Virus record (IMG/VR): IMGVR_UViG_3300025910_000137 | Coordinates: 1-27,745 of that record | Source of the DNA: a virus | Strand: one strand, 5' to 3' | Length of the DNA: 27,745 nt | Part shown: piece after piece, positions 10,833 to 26,371 of the stretch | Numbering within the stretch: position 1 is the stretch's first letter | How the letters are laid out: each line of letters opens with the position of its first letter | Translations under genes and position numbers: made by a program | The notes under the pieces: generated by a model | Told to the model about the DNA's origin: nothing | Seen by the model: the letters and a program-made list of their open reading frames with translations, nothing else | Database searches by the model: none

Positions 10833-10960
10833 GGCGGGATTCGGGGTTCGGGAGGAGAGCGGGATTCGGGATTCGGAATTCGGGATTAAGGGCGGAGCCT
10901 CCGTCACGAACCCCGAACCACGAAACCCCAATCCCGAATCCCCCCGAACCCCGAACCCCG
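10833..10960. repeat. Heptad-like GGATTCG repeat array forming a long imperfect inverted repeat
   Basis: The left half (10834-10889) is built from units like GGGATTCG and GGGGTTCG. The right half (10908-10959) carries the complementary CGAACCCC and CGAATCCC units. Between them is CGGAG-C-CTCCG (10893-10903), a small perfect palindrome. Transcribed, the block would fold into a long hairpin. It ends 6 bases before the adhesin ATG, leaving that gene without a recognisable ribosome site. Confidence 0.75.
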
Positions 10961-10966
10961 ATAACT

Positions 10967-11425
10967 ATGTCCGATATAATTGCAATCTCGCGCCGGCTGG
11001 ACGAGATAGAAAGCCTGCTCGAACGGCTCCGCAAGAGCGACGCGGGCGGGGTATCGGTTGCCTATACGCCGACGTACACCGGCACGACGATCGCGGGCGT
11101 GACGACCTACACGACACAAGAGGGATGGTACACCGTTACCGACCGGATGATCTTCGTCAACGGCCTGGTTGTGTGGACGGCGGCGAGTGGCACGGGGAGC
11201 GGGTTGATTAGCCTGCCGACGATCCTCGACACGAACCGGGGGCGCGCGTCGGGGGTCGTGCGAACGTCGGCGGTCACGTTCGCCAACGGCAGTATCCAGG
11301 TGTTCGTATCGGCGACCGTAACCGGCTTTACAATGGAGAGTCCAATCACGAACGGGGCATCTACGAACGTCGCGGTCGAGGCCGCCGGCAACGTAACGTT
11401 CTCGATCTGGTACCCAGTTGCTTAG
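10967..11425 (+). CDS. Tail fibre / adhesin tip protein
   Basis: A 152-residue protein. Residues 1-25 (MSDIIAISRRLDEIESLLER) form a short coiled coil suited to trimerisation. The rest is a beta-sandwich-like Thr/Ser/Gly-rich sequence (YTPTYTGTTIAGVTTYTTQ, then MIFVNGLVVWTAASGTG, ending NVTFSIWYPVA) of the kind found in phage fibre tips. It probably contacts the host surface. The start ATG 10967 lacks a Shine-Dalgarno sequence because the inverted-repeat block runs up to it; this suggests structure-dependent or re-initiation translation. The last 30 codons recur, diverged, at 11713-11805. Confidence 0.7.
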   Translation: MSDIIAISRRLDEIESLLERLRKSDAGGVSVAYTPTYTGTTIAGVTTYTTQEGWYTVTDRMIFVNGLVVWTAASGTGSGLISLPTILDTNRGRASGVVRTSAVTFANGSIQVFVSATVTGFTMESPITNGASTNVAVEAAGNVTFSIWYPVA

Positions 11426-11711
11426 TGCGTTTTAACCGCTTGTAGACTAGACAAACCGCACGTCCTCTGTTATACTTAGCACAGGTGTTTTGCACCTAAA
11501 CAACTGAGCCTTGCGGGTTCGGGCGGGTAAACCTCCGCTCGATAAAAGGTTCAAGGTCTGTGCGACGTGCATCGGTAGCTGAAATTGCTCCACCGCACAT
11601 TCTCCAGGTCGCACCACTACGTAAAGGCGGGGGCACCGCCTTCGGGGACGGTAGCCAATGGGTTGCCGGTTGAACCGAGAAGCCCACGACTAAAGCCGTG
11701 GGAGTTGTCAC
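11426..11711 (+). mobile_element. Decayed, transposase-less IS200/IS605-type element
   Basis: The right end (11711) is defined by homology to the intact TnpB element and by the exact restart of adhesin homology at 11712. The left end is not resolved and is placed after the adhesin stop. Weak traces of a TnpB zinc ribbon (KRFKVCATC in one frame near 11555-11580) are followed by stops, so most of tnpB is deleted. Confidence 0.6.
11448..11476 (+). promoter_or_regulatory. Sigma70-like promoter driving the omegaRNA remnant
   Basis: TAGACA (11448-11453), a 17-base spacer and TATACT (11471-11476) match the consensus at five of six positions in each hexamer. The predicted start near 11483 begins just before a hairpin AGGTG-TTTTG-CACCT and reads toward the omegaRNA-like block. 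The region also contains the short stem GTGCG/CGCAC after the adhesin stop. Confidence 0.65.
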
Positions 11712-11727
11712 AATGGAAAGCCCGCTG
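11483..11727 (+). ncRNA. TnpB-type omegaRNA (reRNA) remnant with 3' guide
   Basis: Bases 11621-11684 match the 3' end of the intact tnpB at 16.6 kb at 54 of 64 positions; one frame still reads KAGAPPSGTVANGLPVEPRS, close to the TnpB C-terminus KAGAPPSG-type sequence. Then comes the terminal hairpin CCCACG/CGTGGG and the end GTTGTCAC at 11711. This is the right end of an IS200/IS605-type element, where TnpB omegaRNAs end and the flanking 16 or so bases become the guide. Here the guide would be AATGGAAAGCCCGCTG, which is adhesin coding sequence. The tnpB gene itself is missing, but a good promoter sits upstream. Processing and activity are inferred. Confidence 0.65.
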
Positions 11728-11805
11728 ACGAACGCCGCGTCAACCAACGTAGCAGTCGAGGCCGCCGGTAACGTCACGTTCTCGATTTGGTATCCGATTG
11801 CCTGA
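11712..11805 (+). pseudogene. Duplicate 3' end of a second adhesin gene
   Basis: From ATG 11713 the frame gives 30 residues ending SIWYPIA and TGA, the same as the last 30 residues of the complete adhesin except three conservative changes. Most nucleotide differences fall at third codon positions, so the copy diverged under selection as a working gene before its 5' part was lost. It begins exactly at the right end of the IS605-type remnant. Confidence 0.8.
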
Positions 11806-11822
11806 TACCCCACGGGGTGCTT

Positions 11823-11892
11823 ATGCCCGTCTTGCCACAAGCGATAGCCGACGCCGTTCTCCTCGACGGCTTGCCGCGTGTCGCCGTCGATA
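11823..11892 (+). pseudogene. Duplicate 5' end of the gene at 12369
   Basis: ATG 11823 opens MPVLPQAIADAVLLDGLPR, paralogous to MPVLPQATADLVATDGLPR of the complete gene downstream. Homology stops where the HEARO-like RNA starts (11893). The frame then runs through the RNA to a TAA at 11976-11978 and is not meaningful. This looks like a gene disrupted by the RNA-bearing element. Confidence 0.75.
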
Positions 11893-12167
11893 GTCATGGA
11901 CTACGGGGATTTATCCCCGTAGCTTGTAGCTGCTCTTTCGCTGCCGTGACACAGGAGCGCTACATTAGCCGGTTGTAATCCGGGTTATCCCTGAGAAACC
12001 CGGCGGCTAGTTAGGCTGCATGACGCAGGTGACGAACCCGTCGCACCGAAGTGCGAAACAGCCTTCTTGCTGAACCCGTCTCCGTCGGCTAACGGCGGTG
12101 ACTGTCGCCAGTCCAAGCCAGCAAGACCAGGGGCTTTTGTCTAAGACCATCACGGGATGGTGTGGGT
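11877..12167 (+). ncRNA. Stand-alone HEARO-like RNA (IscB/IsrB omegaRNA-like) with 5' guide
   Basis: The block is densely structured. P1 GTCATGG/CCGTGAC (11893-11899 with 11944-11950) encloses CTACGGGG/CCCCGTAG. TAGCCG/CGGCTA (11966-11971 with 12004-12009) encloses CCGGGTT/AACCCGG. GGCTG/CAGCC (12014-12018 with 12059-12063) encloses CGCAC-CGAA-GTGCG. CTTGCTG/CAGCAAG (12066-12072 with 12119-12125) encloses GACTG/CAGTC. A final hairpin is ACCATC/GATGGT. This layout, with a guide-adjacent stem and a flanking-gene guide at the 5' side, resembles HEARO RNAs, the omegaRNAs of IscB/IsrB. No IscB, IsrB or other frame follows. The putative guide is CGTGTCGCCGTCGATA. Family membership is from recall of consensus features, not a search. 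Confidence 0.6.
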
Positions 12168-12368
12168 ATAAAACCGTTTTATCCTGCGCGCAGGTGCCTT
12201 ACCCATACATCCATTATACAGCACATCAGTGCGGAATACTAGTATAAGTTCAGTTAAACCGCGCCCCTATATCAAGCCTGGATTTCCTACCTGCGGCGCG
12301 CTATCGGCTCCTCTCCTGAGGTTGAAACCCCGTAGTTTCCGCCGAAAGGATTTATTCGAGGATTAACT
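12168..12368 (+). other. Non-coding tail of the HEARO-like element
   Basis: About 200 bases without a gene. It contains the palindromes ATAAAAC-C-GTTTTAT (12168-12182) and CTGCGCGCAG (12184-12193), a TATAAT on the minus strand near 12212-12217, and GAAAC-CCCGTA-GTTTC just upstream of the next gene's ribosome site GAGGA. An IscB or IsrB gene would be expected here and is absent. The right end of the element is not resolved. Confidence 0.4.
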
Positions 12369-12764
12369 ATGCCGGTTCTTCCACAGGCAACTGCTGACTT
12401 AGTAGCAACAGACGGACTGCCCCGGCAGGCGACGGCAGACGACAACTCGGTACACGTCCTCTACCTTGACGGGGCGCTCGTGCGCTCGATGCTCGCGTCC
12501 GCCTGGCCGCCCCCACTCCCCACACCACCGACCGCGCGCCAGTCAGCCACCGCAATAGCGGCGCGGCAGGCAGCGGCGCAGCAGGCGCTTATCGACGAGG
12601 CCGCGCTTGACGCACGGGTGAAGAACCTTGCGGCGGGCTGCGTCGGGATGAGCGTTGACGACCTACTGGCGGGGCACGTCAAGACGTTCGTGATACTTTG
12701 GTTGCACAGCAAGAAGGCGCTCGACAAGGATGGGAAGATTAAGCCACTGAGTGACTGGTGCTAG
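12369..12764 (+). CDS. Conserved phage protein of unknown function, last gene of the late block
   Basis: A 131-residue protein starts at ATG 12369 behind GAGGA. Residues about 1-45 are variable (compare the duplicate 5' end at 11823). A Pro-rich linker follows, then an Ala/Gln-rich helix (about 57-75). The C-terminal domain is RVKNLAAGCVGMSVDDLLAGHV and WLHSKKALDKDGKIKPLSDWC. The ending ALDKDGKIxPLxxW is recurrent in small proteins encoded downstream of phage fibre genes, so a fibre-associated role is possible, but no biochemical role is known. Its stop overlaps the stop of the leftward gene at 12761, marking the convergence of the two transcription blocks. Confidence 0.65.
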   Translation: MPVLPQATADLVATDGLPRQATADDNSVHVLYLDGALVRSMLASAWPPPLPTPPTARQSATAIAARQAAAQQALIDEAALDARVKNLAAGCVGMSVDDLLAGHVKTFVILWLHSKKALDKDGKIKPLSDWC

Positions 12765-13033
12765 GCATCCGTCGCGCCCCAATTCTGCGGCCCGTTTCTT
12801 CGCTCGCCCCTCGCAATCATGCGCCCTGCATTGAGCAACAGTTGTTGCCTATCGAATATCAGCCCCAGGACGCTAGGGCCGACTAGCTCCGCCGTCGCCT
12901 GCATGAACGCGATCGCGTCGGCTAGCTCCATCAGCGCCCATGGCAGCGCTTCCCCATACGCCTCTGAGCTTCCAAATCTCATTTCGTCGTAATTCGTCTG
13001 CGTTAGCTTGATACGGTCAAGCGGGCTGGGCAT
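12761..13033 (-). CDS. Small hypothetical protein, last gene of the leftward block
   Basis: A 90-residue protein from ATG 13033, chosen because GAAGGGAG lies 8 bases upstream; a GTG at 13051 would place this ribosome site inside the gene. The sequence is helical (NYDEMRFGSSEAYGEALPWA, then LMELADAIAFMQATAELV) with no transmembrane segment or cysteines. The function is not recognised. It converges on the last late gene with overlapping stop codons. Confidence 0.6.
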   Translation of the reverse strand: MPSPLDRIKLTQTNYDEMRFGSSEAYGEALPWALMELADAIAFMQATAELVGPSVLGLIFDRQQLLLNAGRMIARGERRNGPQNWGATDA

Positions 13034-13142: not shown

Positions 13143-13588
13143 CAGCTCCTCTCGATCGGTTCCAAGTCCCTCAAGTCGTCGTCGTTCCTTACGTGCCCGC
13201 GCTGTCGCACGCGAGCATGGCCGCGGCGGTCGGTATGACCCGACACCCCTGGCCTATCCCTCACGATCGACCGGGGCCGGCTTGCGCCGCGATGGACCCG
13301 AACCGCGCGCCGGTGGGGAGGGAGATGCGAACAGGAGTGTGCATGGGCCGGTTATCACGCAGGCTTGGCTTGATAGCGAGTCGGTTCGGGTTAAAGAAAT
13401 CTTAACACACCCGCCAATTAGTATGCTATAGGAATGTAGTCCTACCAAATAGGGGCAAGGAAGAATCCTTACAACGTCAGGGAGAATCCTGACATGAGGA
13501 ACGGCGGCCCCCGTCGGAAGCCGCCGCCGCTGCCCTCAACGCCCCCGGCTCTACTCGTTGGGCGTCGGGGGGAGTATAGCATAGCGGG
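13143..13588. other. Gene-poor control-like region with serial hairpins
   Basis: No frame here is convincing. On the plus strand an extended -10-like TGCTATAGG (13424-13432), with TTAACA upstream at a long spacing, precedes three small hairpins of one pattern: TAGGA/TCCTA (13429-13433 with 13440-13444), AAGGA/TCCTT and GTCAGG/CCTGAC. Two GC-rich stems follow (GGCGGC/GCCGCC and AACGCCC/GGGCGTC-like). On the minus strand the same stems follow the stop of the 13589 gene and may end or attenuate its transcript. Confidence 0.4.
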
Positions 13589-16561: not shown

Positions 16562-16700
16562 GTGACAACTCCATCACAGAGGATGGCTTCTCAGTTCAAC
16601 CGCCAGCCCATCGGCCAACGTCCCTGAAGGCGGTGCCCCCGCCCGTAAGATGTTCTTTGCGGCGTTTACGTCCCTGTCAGCAACATACCCGCACGAAGGA
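16545..16700 (-). ncRNA. TnpB omegaRNA (reRNA) at the 3' end of tnpB
   Basis: The last part of tnpB and its downstream hairpin CCATC/GATGG (16571-16575 with 16582-16586) are conserved with the remnant at 11621-11711, including the terminal GTTGTCAC. The tnpB stop codon lies inside this hairpin, as is normal where the omegaRNA overlaps the gene end. The first flanking bases, TTCGACGCGGCATCCG, would be the guide, and they come from the interrupted gene. Confidence 0.65.
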
Positions 16701-17730
16701 CAGATGTGCGTTCGTACTGACAACGACTTCTGAACAAGTTCGCCGCACTGAGAGCAGTCCTGTGTCGTGAAGTGCGGGCTGATTCTGATTACCTGACCGC
16801 CAGCACTTCCGGCCTTGTCAGTCAGGATGGTCAGGAACGCACCCCACGAAGCGTCAAGAATGCTCTTCGATAACACGCTGCGCGCCAGCCCTGCTATATT
16901 CAGGTCTTCTACGACGATGATCTTGTAGGCATCGGCATAGCGTTTCGCTGTCTTGAAGTGGAAGTCGCGCCGCTGGCGGTCAATCTTCAAGTATGTCAGC
17001 GCCACGCTGCGCGCCGCCCTGCGACGACGGCGGCTGCCTTTTACGCGGGCGCTTAACCGGCGCTGCTTGCGCCGCAAGGCCGCCTGACTGGTACGAAAGA
17101 AACGCGGGTTCTCTACCGTGTTCCCGTCGCTATCGGCAAGGAACACCTTTAGCCCAACGTCAACACCAACAGAGGGCCGGTCGTCGGCGGGATGCGAAGG
17201 GTCGGCTTGCGCGGGCAACTCGCATACGATATGGGCATACCAATGACCGTCTGCCCGCCTGACTAAGTAGCCGGTTTTGGGCGTGCCTTCCATCTCACGA
17301 TGCCGCTTGATTTTTATCGCCTTGCCGAGCTTGGCAGGAACATATAGGTATCGGCCATCAAGCCAAGCGTCGCGCCTGCCCGTAAGTTGGCGCAACTGGA
17401 TACTGTGCCACTGATTACCGCTTTTAAATCGCGGGAAGCCCTGCCCCTCGTTGCGCCGGGCAAGAAATGCCTTCAGCGCTTTATCTAGCCGGTCAGCAAG
17501 GCACTGAACAGTAGAGGCCGGAACGTGCGCCGTGCTACGCCCCTTGAACAACGTAGCCAGCCCATACTTACCCAAAAACTTACCGCTGTCTTGGTAGTGC
17601 TGCTTCTCGCTTTCCAGCATCTCGTTATAGAGCTGGCGCGACTCGTATAGGCACGCACTGAGACGGCGGCGTTGCTCCTTGTTTGGGTAGAGGCGGAACA
17701 CGAATGTTTTCATGGTGATTTATCTTTTGC
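16562..17730 (-). mobile_element. TnpB-only IS605-family (IS1341-type) element
   Basis: The right end is GTTGTCAC at 16562, defined by agreement with the remnant at 11711. The left end lies between about 17715 and 17735 and is not resolved, because the flanking gene frame runs on smoothly to a stop at the tnpB start. The element carries tnpB alone, and its movement would need TnpA in trans. Confidence 0.75.
16574..17713 (-). CDS. tnpB: TnpB RNA-guided nuclease (IS605/IS1341-type OrfB)
   Basis: A 379-residue protein with the full TnpB layout: N-terminal helical region (MKTFVFRLYPNKEQ), beta-barrel/REC part, and RuvC motifs I D185 (GVDVGLKVF), II E269 (IIVVEDLN) and III D348 (RDVNAAKNI). A zinc ribbon has C320, C323, C338 and C341. 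All three catalytic acids are present, so it is predicted to be active, unlike nuclease-dead TldR proteins. TnpB cuts DNA next to a short TAM guided by omegaRNA from its own 3' end, favouring retention of the element. No TnpA transposase is nearby. Its ATG overlaps the stop of the truncated host gene (ATGA), so translation may be coupled to the phage operon. Confidence 0.95.
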   Translation of the reverse strand: MKTFVFRLYPNKEQRRRLSACLYESRQLYNEMLESEKQHYQDSGKFLGKYGLATLFKGRSTAHVPASTVQCLADRLDKALKAFLARRNEGQGFPRFKSGNQWHSIQLRQLTGRRDAWLDGRYLYVPAKLGKAIKIKRHREMEGTPKTGYLVRRADGHWYAHIVCELPAQADPSHPADDRPSVGVDVGLKVFLADSDGNTVENPRFFRTSQAALRRKQRRLSARVKGSRRRRRAARSVALTYLKIDRQRRDFHFKTAKRYADAYKIIVVEDLNIAGLARSVLSKSILDASWGAFLTILTDKAGSAGGQVIRISPHFTTQDCSQCGELVQKSLSVRTHICPSCGYVADRDVNAAKNILRAGAPPSGTLADGLAVELRSHPL

Positions 17731-24931: not shown

Positions 24932-26371
24932 CTACGCCTTGCTGTCAGATGCCAGGTAGCGCAGTTCATCGGGTAGCACTACCGGCGCCGGCTCGTAGCC
25001 TGGGTACTCCCGTATCCGCTCGATAAGGTTTGTCTTTTCATAGACCTGACAACCGGCTGCGTGGGCCTGGTCTTCTATCGCGTTAATCCAGGCGCGCGGC
25101 GGTCGCCATTCGGGTGTTTGTGTCGAGCTTGACGCGCCGCCCAGGACTATCCATTGAAACATGCTCAGGTCGGTGAATTGCAGCGGCTCCAATAGTGGCT
25201 CGCAGCTTAACCACTTGACTTTCGCTCGCACGTTTCGGAACGCCCTTTCTGCGTTCGCCACGCGCGCTTGAGCGTCAACCGACGTACCCACCCAAGCGTT
25301 ATCGGGAAACTCAAATTCGGCCATGCGTATCGGGAACTTGGTAAGAAACAGGAAGTTCCACTCAGGCGCGCGGGTCACCACGTCAAGCACCGCCTCGATC
25401 CACTCGCGCGGCACCCACCGCCCGAACAGATCAGCCATCGAGCATGTGAAGACGTTCTTATAGCCGATGTCGGTCTGGGCGGCTGGCGGCACGGGCGTGT
25501 TGAGTGGCGCGGTCAATCGTTCAGGGATTAGCGCCGGCTCGAACTTCTGTTCATAGAAGCGCATCGCAATATCGCGGGCGTAGCAGTACGGGCAGTTGTG
25601 CTTGCATCCGGTCACCGGGTTCCATGACCACTTCGCCCACTCGATATTGTCGGTTTCCTGTTTGTTAAATCTTCTGTCGCCGGCCTGGTGCAGCGCGCTG
25701 AACCGCGCCGCCTCGTCCATCTTGCTCCACTCGATAAGGGTGATATACTCTTTCGGCTTTGGCTCGTCTCTCGGCCTGCTCTGCGGGATGACGCCGGCCT
25801 CTTGCGCCTGGTTATATGCCTTACCGACATTGTGTCGAACCGTCGTTCGGAGTTGCCCCGCCTCTCGCGCCTTGCCTTGCTCCTCCAGGCGGTCGATTGC
25901 CTCGACGACCCGCGCGGCTCTGCTTGCGGTAGTGTGTGAGACGCCGAGTTGCTCGGCGGCCTTATGGCTTGGCTTTTGAACTTCGGTAAACTGATTTACC
26001 GAAGTTCCGTTTATATCGTTCCGTTGCCCTTGCCTGCTCTCGCGTTCTTCGATAATCCGCCGCAAGGCTGTGTACTCGCGCCCGATAATCAGCCCGTCCT
26101 TATCCCGCTGGCGGTTGCTCTCGATCAGCGCCTCCAGGATGTCCAGTTCATCATCGGAGCGATATAGGACAACCGGCACTTCCATCAAGCCCACCTTGCG
26201 CGCCGCGTCGTAGCGCCGGTGACCGCTGATGATACGACTGTCGTGCGTAATCAGGAGCGGGGTCAATATCCCTTTCTCCCTGATACTCTCTACTAGGTCG
26301 CTATCGGCGGTGTCGCCATAGATGCGGGCGTTCTCAGGGTGGGGGTGTAGCTCGGTAATATTCCTAAGCAC
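24932..26371 (-). CDS. ParB-like domain fused to three-Cys Gp37/Gp68 (DUF5131) protein
   Basis: A 479-residue fusion. Residues 1-75 are a ParB-like N-terminal domain (HPENARIYGD, then IISGHRRYDAARKVGL). Residues about 137-160 form a helix-turn-helix (KAAEQLGVSHTTASRAARVV). From about 245 the Gp37/Gp68 family (PF07505) begins, with SWNPVTGCKHNCPYCYARDI; C256, C260 and C263 give the CX3CX2C motif of radical-SAM iron-sulfur clusters. FTCSMADLFGRWVPREWIEA, then WLSCEPLLEPL and WIVLGGASSS are family landmarks. The chemistry is unknown. A TcmP-type partner is encoded three genes upstream, as expected for this family. Start ATG 26371; gap of 2 bases to the initiator gene. Confidence 0.88.
   Translation of the reverse strand: MLRNITELHPHPENARIYGDTADSDLVESIREKGILTPLLITHDSRIISGHRRYDAARKVGLMEVPVVLYRSDDELDILEALIESNRQRDKDGLIIGREYTALRRIIEERESRQGQRNDINGTSVNQFTEVQKPSHKAAEQLGVSHTTASRAARVVEAIDRLEEQGKAREAGQLRTTVRHNVGKAYNQAQEAGVIPQSRPRDEPKPKEYITLIEWSKMDEAARFSALHQAGDRRFNKQETDNIEWAKWSWNPVTGCKHNCPYCYARDIAMRFYEQKFEPALIPERLTAPLNTPVPPAAQTDIGYKNVFTCSMADLFGRWVPREWIEAVLDVVTRAPEWNFLFLTKFPIRMAEFEFPDNAWVGTSVDAQARVANAERAFRNVRAKVKWLSCEPLLEPLQFTDLSMFQWIVLGGASSSTQTPEWRPPRAWINAIEDQAHAAGCQVYEKTNLIERIREYPGYEPAPVVLPDELRYLASDSKA

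Follow-up and report, generated by a model that had tools for sequence, protein, structure and literature searches.

We analysed a window of 27,745 bases from one IMG/VR virus record, whose tail genes encode tape measure, Gp37-like and minor tail proteins and whose closest relatives suggest a Chloroflexota host. An element of this window, here called E1, is in our view most probably (at roughly 0.72) a stand-alone omegaRNA gene, the RNA of which would be loaded into a TnpB in trans and direct cutting of uninterrupted copies of its own insertion site; its function and partner we infer. An earlier note on this DNA had read E1 as a tnpB-less omegaRNA with an adhesin-derived guide, and this reading agrees with our analysis, the guide starting at 11712 and the word 'adhesin' being given by gene position only. 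A conserved 5' domain, a pseudoknot and a second element at 11892-12368 are additions to that note.

Position, promoter and fold of E1

E1, its parts and its flanks are:

10967..11425 (+): A1, intact 152-aa adhesin-like ORF with TTTAC-AATGGAGAGTCC at 11327-11343 (ORF; 'adhesin' from position)
11448..11476 (+): sigma70-like promoter TAGACA-17-TATACT with extended -10 (TG) (promoter search; related copies with a -10-like box)
11483..11711 (+): E1, stand-alone omegaRNA scaffold, from the predicted transcript start to the last scaffold base (fold z -3.67; homologues)
11499..11560 (+): conserved 5' domain (model R1), two nested helices, 62 nt (56 distinct sequences, covariation)
11625..11641 (+): omegaRNA stem 1, AGGCGG/CCGCCT, with loop GGGCA (alignment A3: covarying stem, invariant loop)
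11632..11635 (+): pseudoknot 5' strand GGCA, partner TGTC at 11706-11709 (alignment A3; same position as the ISDra2 pseudoknot, PMC10097598)
11642..11678 (+): omegaRNA stems 2 and 3 (alignment A3)
11683..11703 (+): terminal hairpin, stem 4 (fold)
11704..11711 (+): right-end motif GTTGTCAC, including TGTC, the pseudoknot 3' strand (sequence)
11710..11804 (+): A2', diverged direct repeat of the A1 3' end, right flank of E1 (80% over 92 bp)
11712..11727 (+): guide AATGGAAAGCCCGCTG, out of A2', the second copy of the adhesin 3' end (sequence comparison)

The promoter, already judged strong by the earlier note, carries an additional TG and was the only promoter-like site found in the 1.9 kb from 10900 to 12800, with 0.6 expected by chance. 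The fold of 11483-11710 reached -97 kcal/mol (z -3.67), and none of 200 shuffled sequences folded equally well. By blastn, positions 11626-11684 (+) were identical to the 3' end of the phage's own tnpB (16643-16585, minus strand) at 52 of 59 positions (88%, E 2e-14), close to the 54 of 64 shared bases counted previously. In three Chloroflexota genomes, tnpB loci matched the 3' scaffold of E1 at 80-87% identity; the tnpB-like frame in E1 amounts to the last ~30 codons' worth only. As had also been noted before, the terminal hairpin stems of E1 and the phage tnpB differ (CCCAC/GTGGG versus CCATCC/GATGG) but both are complementary, and GTTGTCAC is kept. A search of 4227 Rfam models gave no match for E1, the second element E2 or their relatives (group I or II intron, riboswitch, HEARO or other), and these identities were therefore rejected for E1.

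Family copies have a left-end hairpin. None was found in E1, the promoter of which begins at 11448, after the end of A1 at 11425. Insertion of E1 just after the A1 stop codon was rejected, as neither a left-end hairpin nor a convincing target motif lies there; a recombination junction between A1 and E1 is more likely. We conclude that the left end of E1 has since been lost, with the A1 gene now abutting E1, and that E1 is probably no longer mobile. Given its missing left end, E1 could also be a dead insertion that is yet to decay.

The tnpB locus of the phage comprises:

16562..16646 (-): omegaRNA 3' scaffold of phage tnpB, right end at 16562 (blastn, alignment A3)
16574..17713 (-): phage TnpB, 379 aa, candidate partner nuclease (PF01385, PF07282; RuvC D-E-D, zinc finger)

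Alignment to solved TnpBs showed that the RuvC D-E-D residues and the zinc finger are kept. The element as a whole (16562-17730, minus strand) lacks nearly all of a left end and is inserted within a small gene, which it splits (..EVARWLVAKD / FDAASGLWLRRCSPDDYHAAL..). Elsewhere in the window, 13420-13520 holds promoter-like and repeated GGGAGAATCCTGAC-like sequence outside clear genes, possibly a further RNA gene, and 24932-26371 (-) encodes a ParB_N domain fused to DUF5131.

A conserved 5' domain and its tnpB-less family

When 400 genomes of the Thermogemmatispora phylum (Chloroflexota) were searched at the DNA level, the relatives of the left half of E1 differed from those of the right half. 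The left half matched short tnpB-less elements (L025, L030, L031, L033 and L042), and the right half matched the right ends of tnpB loci (L023, L024 and L027), the TnpBs of which are 60-61% identical to that of the phage. The left half has homologues of its own and hence is no leftover from a regular IS605 element. Model R1, built from alignment A1 of seven left halves, was found in 14 of the 400 Chloroflexota genomes, at a maximum of 12 copies per genome, and in 12 of 292 cyanobacterial genomes (the Nostoc phylum), at a maximum of 10; these copy numbers are lower bounds owing to genome sampling and strict score filters, many of the sampled genomes being MAGs with repeats at contig ends. The domain was absent from the tnpB-linked omegaRNAs examined, and strict and looser IUPAC patterns of it gave no true match in IMG/VR, where one chance match fell inside a coding region.

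Over 56 distinct sequences, 90.7% of the cells pair in the R1 structure and 16 of 17 pairs changed on both sides; the covariation score was 0.487, compared with 0.186 upon shuffling (0/500) and at most 0.118 upon sliding, a very large effect in an alignment whose fitting to the R1 model favours the structure. A -10-like box lies just upstream of the RNA in R1 copies, and most of them have left end hairpins. With a single TnpB query, which could miss distant TnpBs, a nearby match was seen for L060 only among the 61 Chloroflexota loci examined, and for no locus among the 10 cyanobacterial ones. Because E1 does not lie at a tnpB 3' end and 60 of the 61 Chloroflexota loci have no TnpB match beside them, E1 is a stand-alone variant. 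It is a member of a conserved tnpB-less family and not a decayed remnant, contrary to the description in the earlier note of an element that had lost tnpB. The dispersal of the family suggests that, in many cells, guides lie scattered over the genome and are served by one common nuclease.

The exception, L060 (G311:C30), is the single case of a stand-alone RNA directly upstream of tnpB, and its guide region points towards the tnpB start. In Cyanobacteria, L177 and L179-L189 combine the 5' domain with IS605-type right-end hairpins, and no TnpB match was found nearby in the loci checked.

Kinship of the 3' half to tnpB-linked omegaRNAs

TnpB domains were found in 13 of the 14 Chloroflexota genomes carrying R1. 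The 3' half of the stand-alone copy L056 matches, in the same genomes, both other stand-alone copies and nine sites that immediately follow a TnpB domain. In genome G027, the tnpB-linked scaffold of L160 is near-identical to stand-alone copies over ~100 nt up to the guide, and the subfamily ending in CCGTCAC likewise has tnpB-linked counterparts, in G224, G269, G311 and G064. A hairpin that is protein-coding in tnpB loci is kept as a hairpin with another loop in stand-alone copies. In two pairs of orthologous insertions, scaffold and flanks were both 97-100% identical.

Covariation of E1 with the phage tnpB scaffold, a check proposed with the earlier reading, was determined in alignment A3, where E1 stands beside eight relatives, with tnpB loci contributed by the phage, G150, G182 and G246. 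Here 94.7% of the cells paired, and 10 of 22 pairs in stems 1-3 and the pseudoknot GGCA:TGTC changed on both sides; the stem around the pseudoknot loop varies between GGCGG/CCGCC, GGCAG/CTGCC and GGCCA/TGGCC. A TnpB omegaRNA architecture with stems 1-4 and a pseudoknot is thus strongly supported as the predicted structure of the E1 3' half.

The ISDra2 omegaRNA has a pseudoknot in which the stem 1 loop base-pairs with the nucleotides immediately preceding the guide (PMC10097598). Of 28 non-redundant stand-alone copies, 15 showed a perfect match between the six bases at the scaffold end and a complement lying between -100 and -63, in eight 6-bp versions (GTAAAC:GTTTAC, GTAAGC:GCTTAC, GTAAGT:ACTTAC, GTCAAG:CTTGAC, GTCAGA:TCTGAC, GTCAGT:ACTGAC, GTCATA:TATGAC and GTCATG:CATGAC). 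When the ends were re-dealt, 2.2 matches were obtained on average and 8 at most, and none of 10000 trials reached 15; the zone had been picked after the first matches were seen, and related copies are not fully independent. In the 13 copies without perfect pairing in this zone, some pair elsewhere and some appear decayed. The pseudoknot of E1 itself has only 4 bp, one of them G-U, and it gives no covariation of its own since it is invariant within the E1 group. In L066, L081, L101 and L108, a longer AAGATGAAAG-type palindrome (nested repeat) stands in place of the stem-1 loop region, by which the pseudoknot strand is removed.

Guide and target motif

A1 has no Pfam or PHROG family match, and hence its name reflects its position. 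In A1, the site homologous to the guide consists of TTTAC (11327-11331) followed by AATGGAGAGTCCAATC; as described previously, its first 6 bases equal those of the guide, with 11 of 16 identical overall and mismatches at guide positions 7, 10, 13, 14 and 16. Owing to these mismatches, A1 should escape cutting by TnpB with the E1 RNA. Comparison of left flanks showed that homology starts after TCAT or TCAC in most copies and right after TTTAC in L051, L074 and L084, which have the right end CCGTCAC. These TTTAC flanks agree with the TTTAC before the A1 site, and L051 is the nearest relative of the E1 5' half. TTTAC is thereby supported as the likely insertion and target motif of E1 with a putative TAM role, in line with the suggestion of the earlier note.

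A search for guide matches next to TTTAC, also suggested there, came back empty: the guide 17-mer has seven exact matches in IMG/VR, which is chance level, and none of the seven follows TTTAC. No second exact target for the E1 guide was found, nor did phages, plasmids or IMG/VR yield any relative of the adhesin or of the E1-E2 region. Between the Gp37-like gene and A1, 10835-10960 forms a large imperfect inverted repeat of CGGGATTCGG-like units, which gives spurious miRNA matches in Rfam.

A probable second element in ORF X

At a distance of 180 bp from E1 lie the following features:

11823..11891 (+): X1', 5' part of ORF X, right flank (guide side) of E2 (in-frame join to 12369)
11892..12368 (-): E2, probable second stand-alone omegaRNA-type element, ends +/-1 base (folds, right-end hairpin, in-frame empty site)
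12019..12024 (-): candidate pseudoknot strand GTCATG of E2, perfect complement of the scaffold end CATGAC (11893-11898) (sequence; same pair in L059)
12213..12220 (-): extended -10 of E2, TGTATAAT (sequence)
12369..12764 (+): X2, intact ORF X from the left end of E2 (ORF, in-frame join)

E2 is probably a second stand-alone omegaRNA-type element similar to E1, and it is inserted in the N-terminal repeat of ORF X. When E2 is left out, X1' and X2 join in frame (MPVLPQAIADAVLLDGLPRVAVD-MPVLPQATADLVATDGLPRQATAD), and thus E1 and E2 each lie between diverged direct repeats of the phage gene that contains them. The minus-strand RNA of E2 folds strongly, and the plus strand also folds well; its left end is a left-end-like double hairpin, and its right end has a hairpin and CATGAC, as in L059. 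The stem filter of the pseudoknot search did not accept the GTCATG/CATGAC pair for E2, and the -10 was not among the promoter-search results, as it has no good -35. The E2 guide TATCGACGGCGACACG reads into X1', the guides of E1 and E2 reading towards each other into A2' and X1'. DNA searches gave no sequence homologue of E2, and its assignment therefore comes from architecture only. The A1/A2' and X1'/X2 arrangement may also be a misassembly (chimera) of two phage strains around direct repeats.

Proposed mechanism and alternative explanations

From its own promoter, with a predicted start at ~11483, E1 would be transcribed into a 229-nt scaffold followed by a guide of ~16 nt from the flanking DNA. 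The 3' half would fold as a TnpB omegaRNA with stems 1-4 and the pseudoknot, and the 5' domain would replace the tnpB-coding part of an ordinary omegaRNA transcript, where it probably aids folding, protection or loading of the RNA without tnpB translation. Action in trans through TnpB, as put forward in the earlier note, is the most natural reading; the phage's own TnpB (16.6 kb), with its D-E-D kept, would be the natural candidate and a resident Chloroflexota TnpB the alternative. As the phage tnpB scaffold is alike but not identical to E1, the partner may indeed be another TnpB. By analogy to ISDra2, the loaded TnpB would cut DNA with TTTAC-AATGGAAAGCCCGCTG, i.e. the element-free insertion site, and the predicted substrate of TnpB with the E1 RNA is TTTACAATGGAAAGCCCGCTG. 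Repair from an element-bearing copy would then keep or spread the insertion. Such repair-driven retention has already been proposed for complete IS200/IS605 elements. In ISDra2, a guide of ~16 nt comes from the flank, the TAM is the insertion site and the 5' part of the omegaRNA is dispensable; TnpB works there with an omegaRNA that lacks this part and comes from a separate construct (PMC8612924, PMC10097598).

E1 might instead be a passive, non-autonomous (MITE-like) IS200/IS605 element, in which hairpins are substrates of TnpA only and the RNA has no function. In favour of this, the family has hairpins at both ends, left flanks that are precisely TCAT, TCAC or TTTAC, and a high copy number, with TnpA (Y1) genes in 9 of 12 of these genomes. 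We nevertheless hold it to be unlikely: TnpA needs neither a promoter, nor a 62-nt domain covarying over two phyla, nor a covarying pseudoknot, and the E1 RNA has been kept despite the lost left end. Between phages, the mechanism proposed for E1 could also make it a weapon, the element-free adhesin gene of related phages being cut and E1 spreading by repair in the manner of a homing endonuclease. Both guides reading into neighbouring phage genes, and the hybrid A1/A2' and X1'/X2 arrangements, would suit this use, but no related phage with a target was found in the phage, plasmid and IMG/VR collections searched and the seven IMG/VR 17-mer matches are those of chance with none after TTTAC, and we consider it improbable.

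The earlier note had raised regulation or diversification of phage adhesin genes, here through the intact A1, which we regard as very improbable. Although TTTAC and the first 6 bases are common to guide and A1, and a guide of only 6 nt can suffice for TldR repressors (PMC13418256), the guide differs from A1, the sole adhesin copy of the window, at 5 of 16 bases, of which two fall in its first 10, and no other target was found; moreover, the guide is merely the insertion flank, as in every family copy. Since the nuclease residues are kept, TnpB binding at A1 would cut the phage's own genome. A cis-regulatory leader or a small self-splicing, IStron-like element is hardly credible for E1: L052 and L068 are directly followed by a ribosome-binding site with its start codon, and IStrons without both ORFs exist (PMC4227781), but no Rfam intron or riboswitch matched, right flanks differ between copies and the 3' half is of the TnpB omegaRNA type.

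Relation to known systems and implications

Reportedly, omegaRNAs encoded away from IscB were found in Ktedonobacter (Altae-Tran, 2021). These would be similar to E1 in having guide loci apart from the nuclease gene in Chloroflexota, but the IscB type has a 5' guide, whereas E1 is of the TnpB type with a 3' guide and a dedicated 5' domain. With the omegaRNA (reRNA) of TnpB in IS200/IS605 elements such as ISDra2, E1 shares the four-stem 3' scaffold, the stem-1-loop pseudoknot before the guide, a right-flank guide of ~16 nt and a target motif at the left flank. Those omegaRNAs overlap tnpB and are processed from tnpB mRNA (PMC10278001, PMC12558985), whereas E1 overlaps no tnpB gene, has a promoter of its own and carries a separate, conserved 5' domain. 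The family resembles PATE or MITE-like IS200/IS605 elements in its end hairpins, insertion after TCAT/TCAC/TTTAC, lack of an ORF and many copies, but differs from them by a promoter-driven RNA of conserved fold, and E1 is without a left end. Like TldR guide RNAs, E1 is phage-borne and of TnpB type, but TldR is a nuclease-dead TnpB, whereas the phage TnpB has its D-E-D, and the E1 guide matches an insertion flank and not a promoter. A broken tldR locus has been suggested to supply guides in trans (PMC13418256). IStrons also combine IS605-type ends with a structured RNA, but no group I intron core was found by Rfam in E1, E2 or relatives.

A wider reading, which we consider rather unlikely, is that stand-alone guide RNAs feed resident TnpBs in trans across phyla and that the phage uses two of them against insertion-free relatives. 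If this were true, cells would hold a scattered guide collection, and the two guides of the phage would point into neighbouring tail genes. A conserved family of promoter-driven omegaRNAs apart from tnpB, with a 5' domain common to two phyla, would mean that guide and nuclease could already be separated in TnpB systems, as in CRISPR-Cas12, and the split-guide step would thereby be testable in living systems. Moreover, the family would offer naturally trans-acting, self-contained guide RNAs for TnpB.
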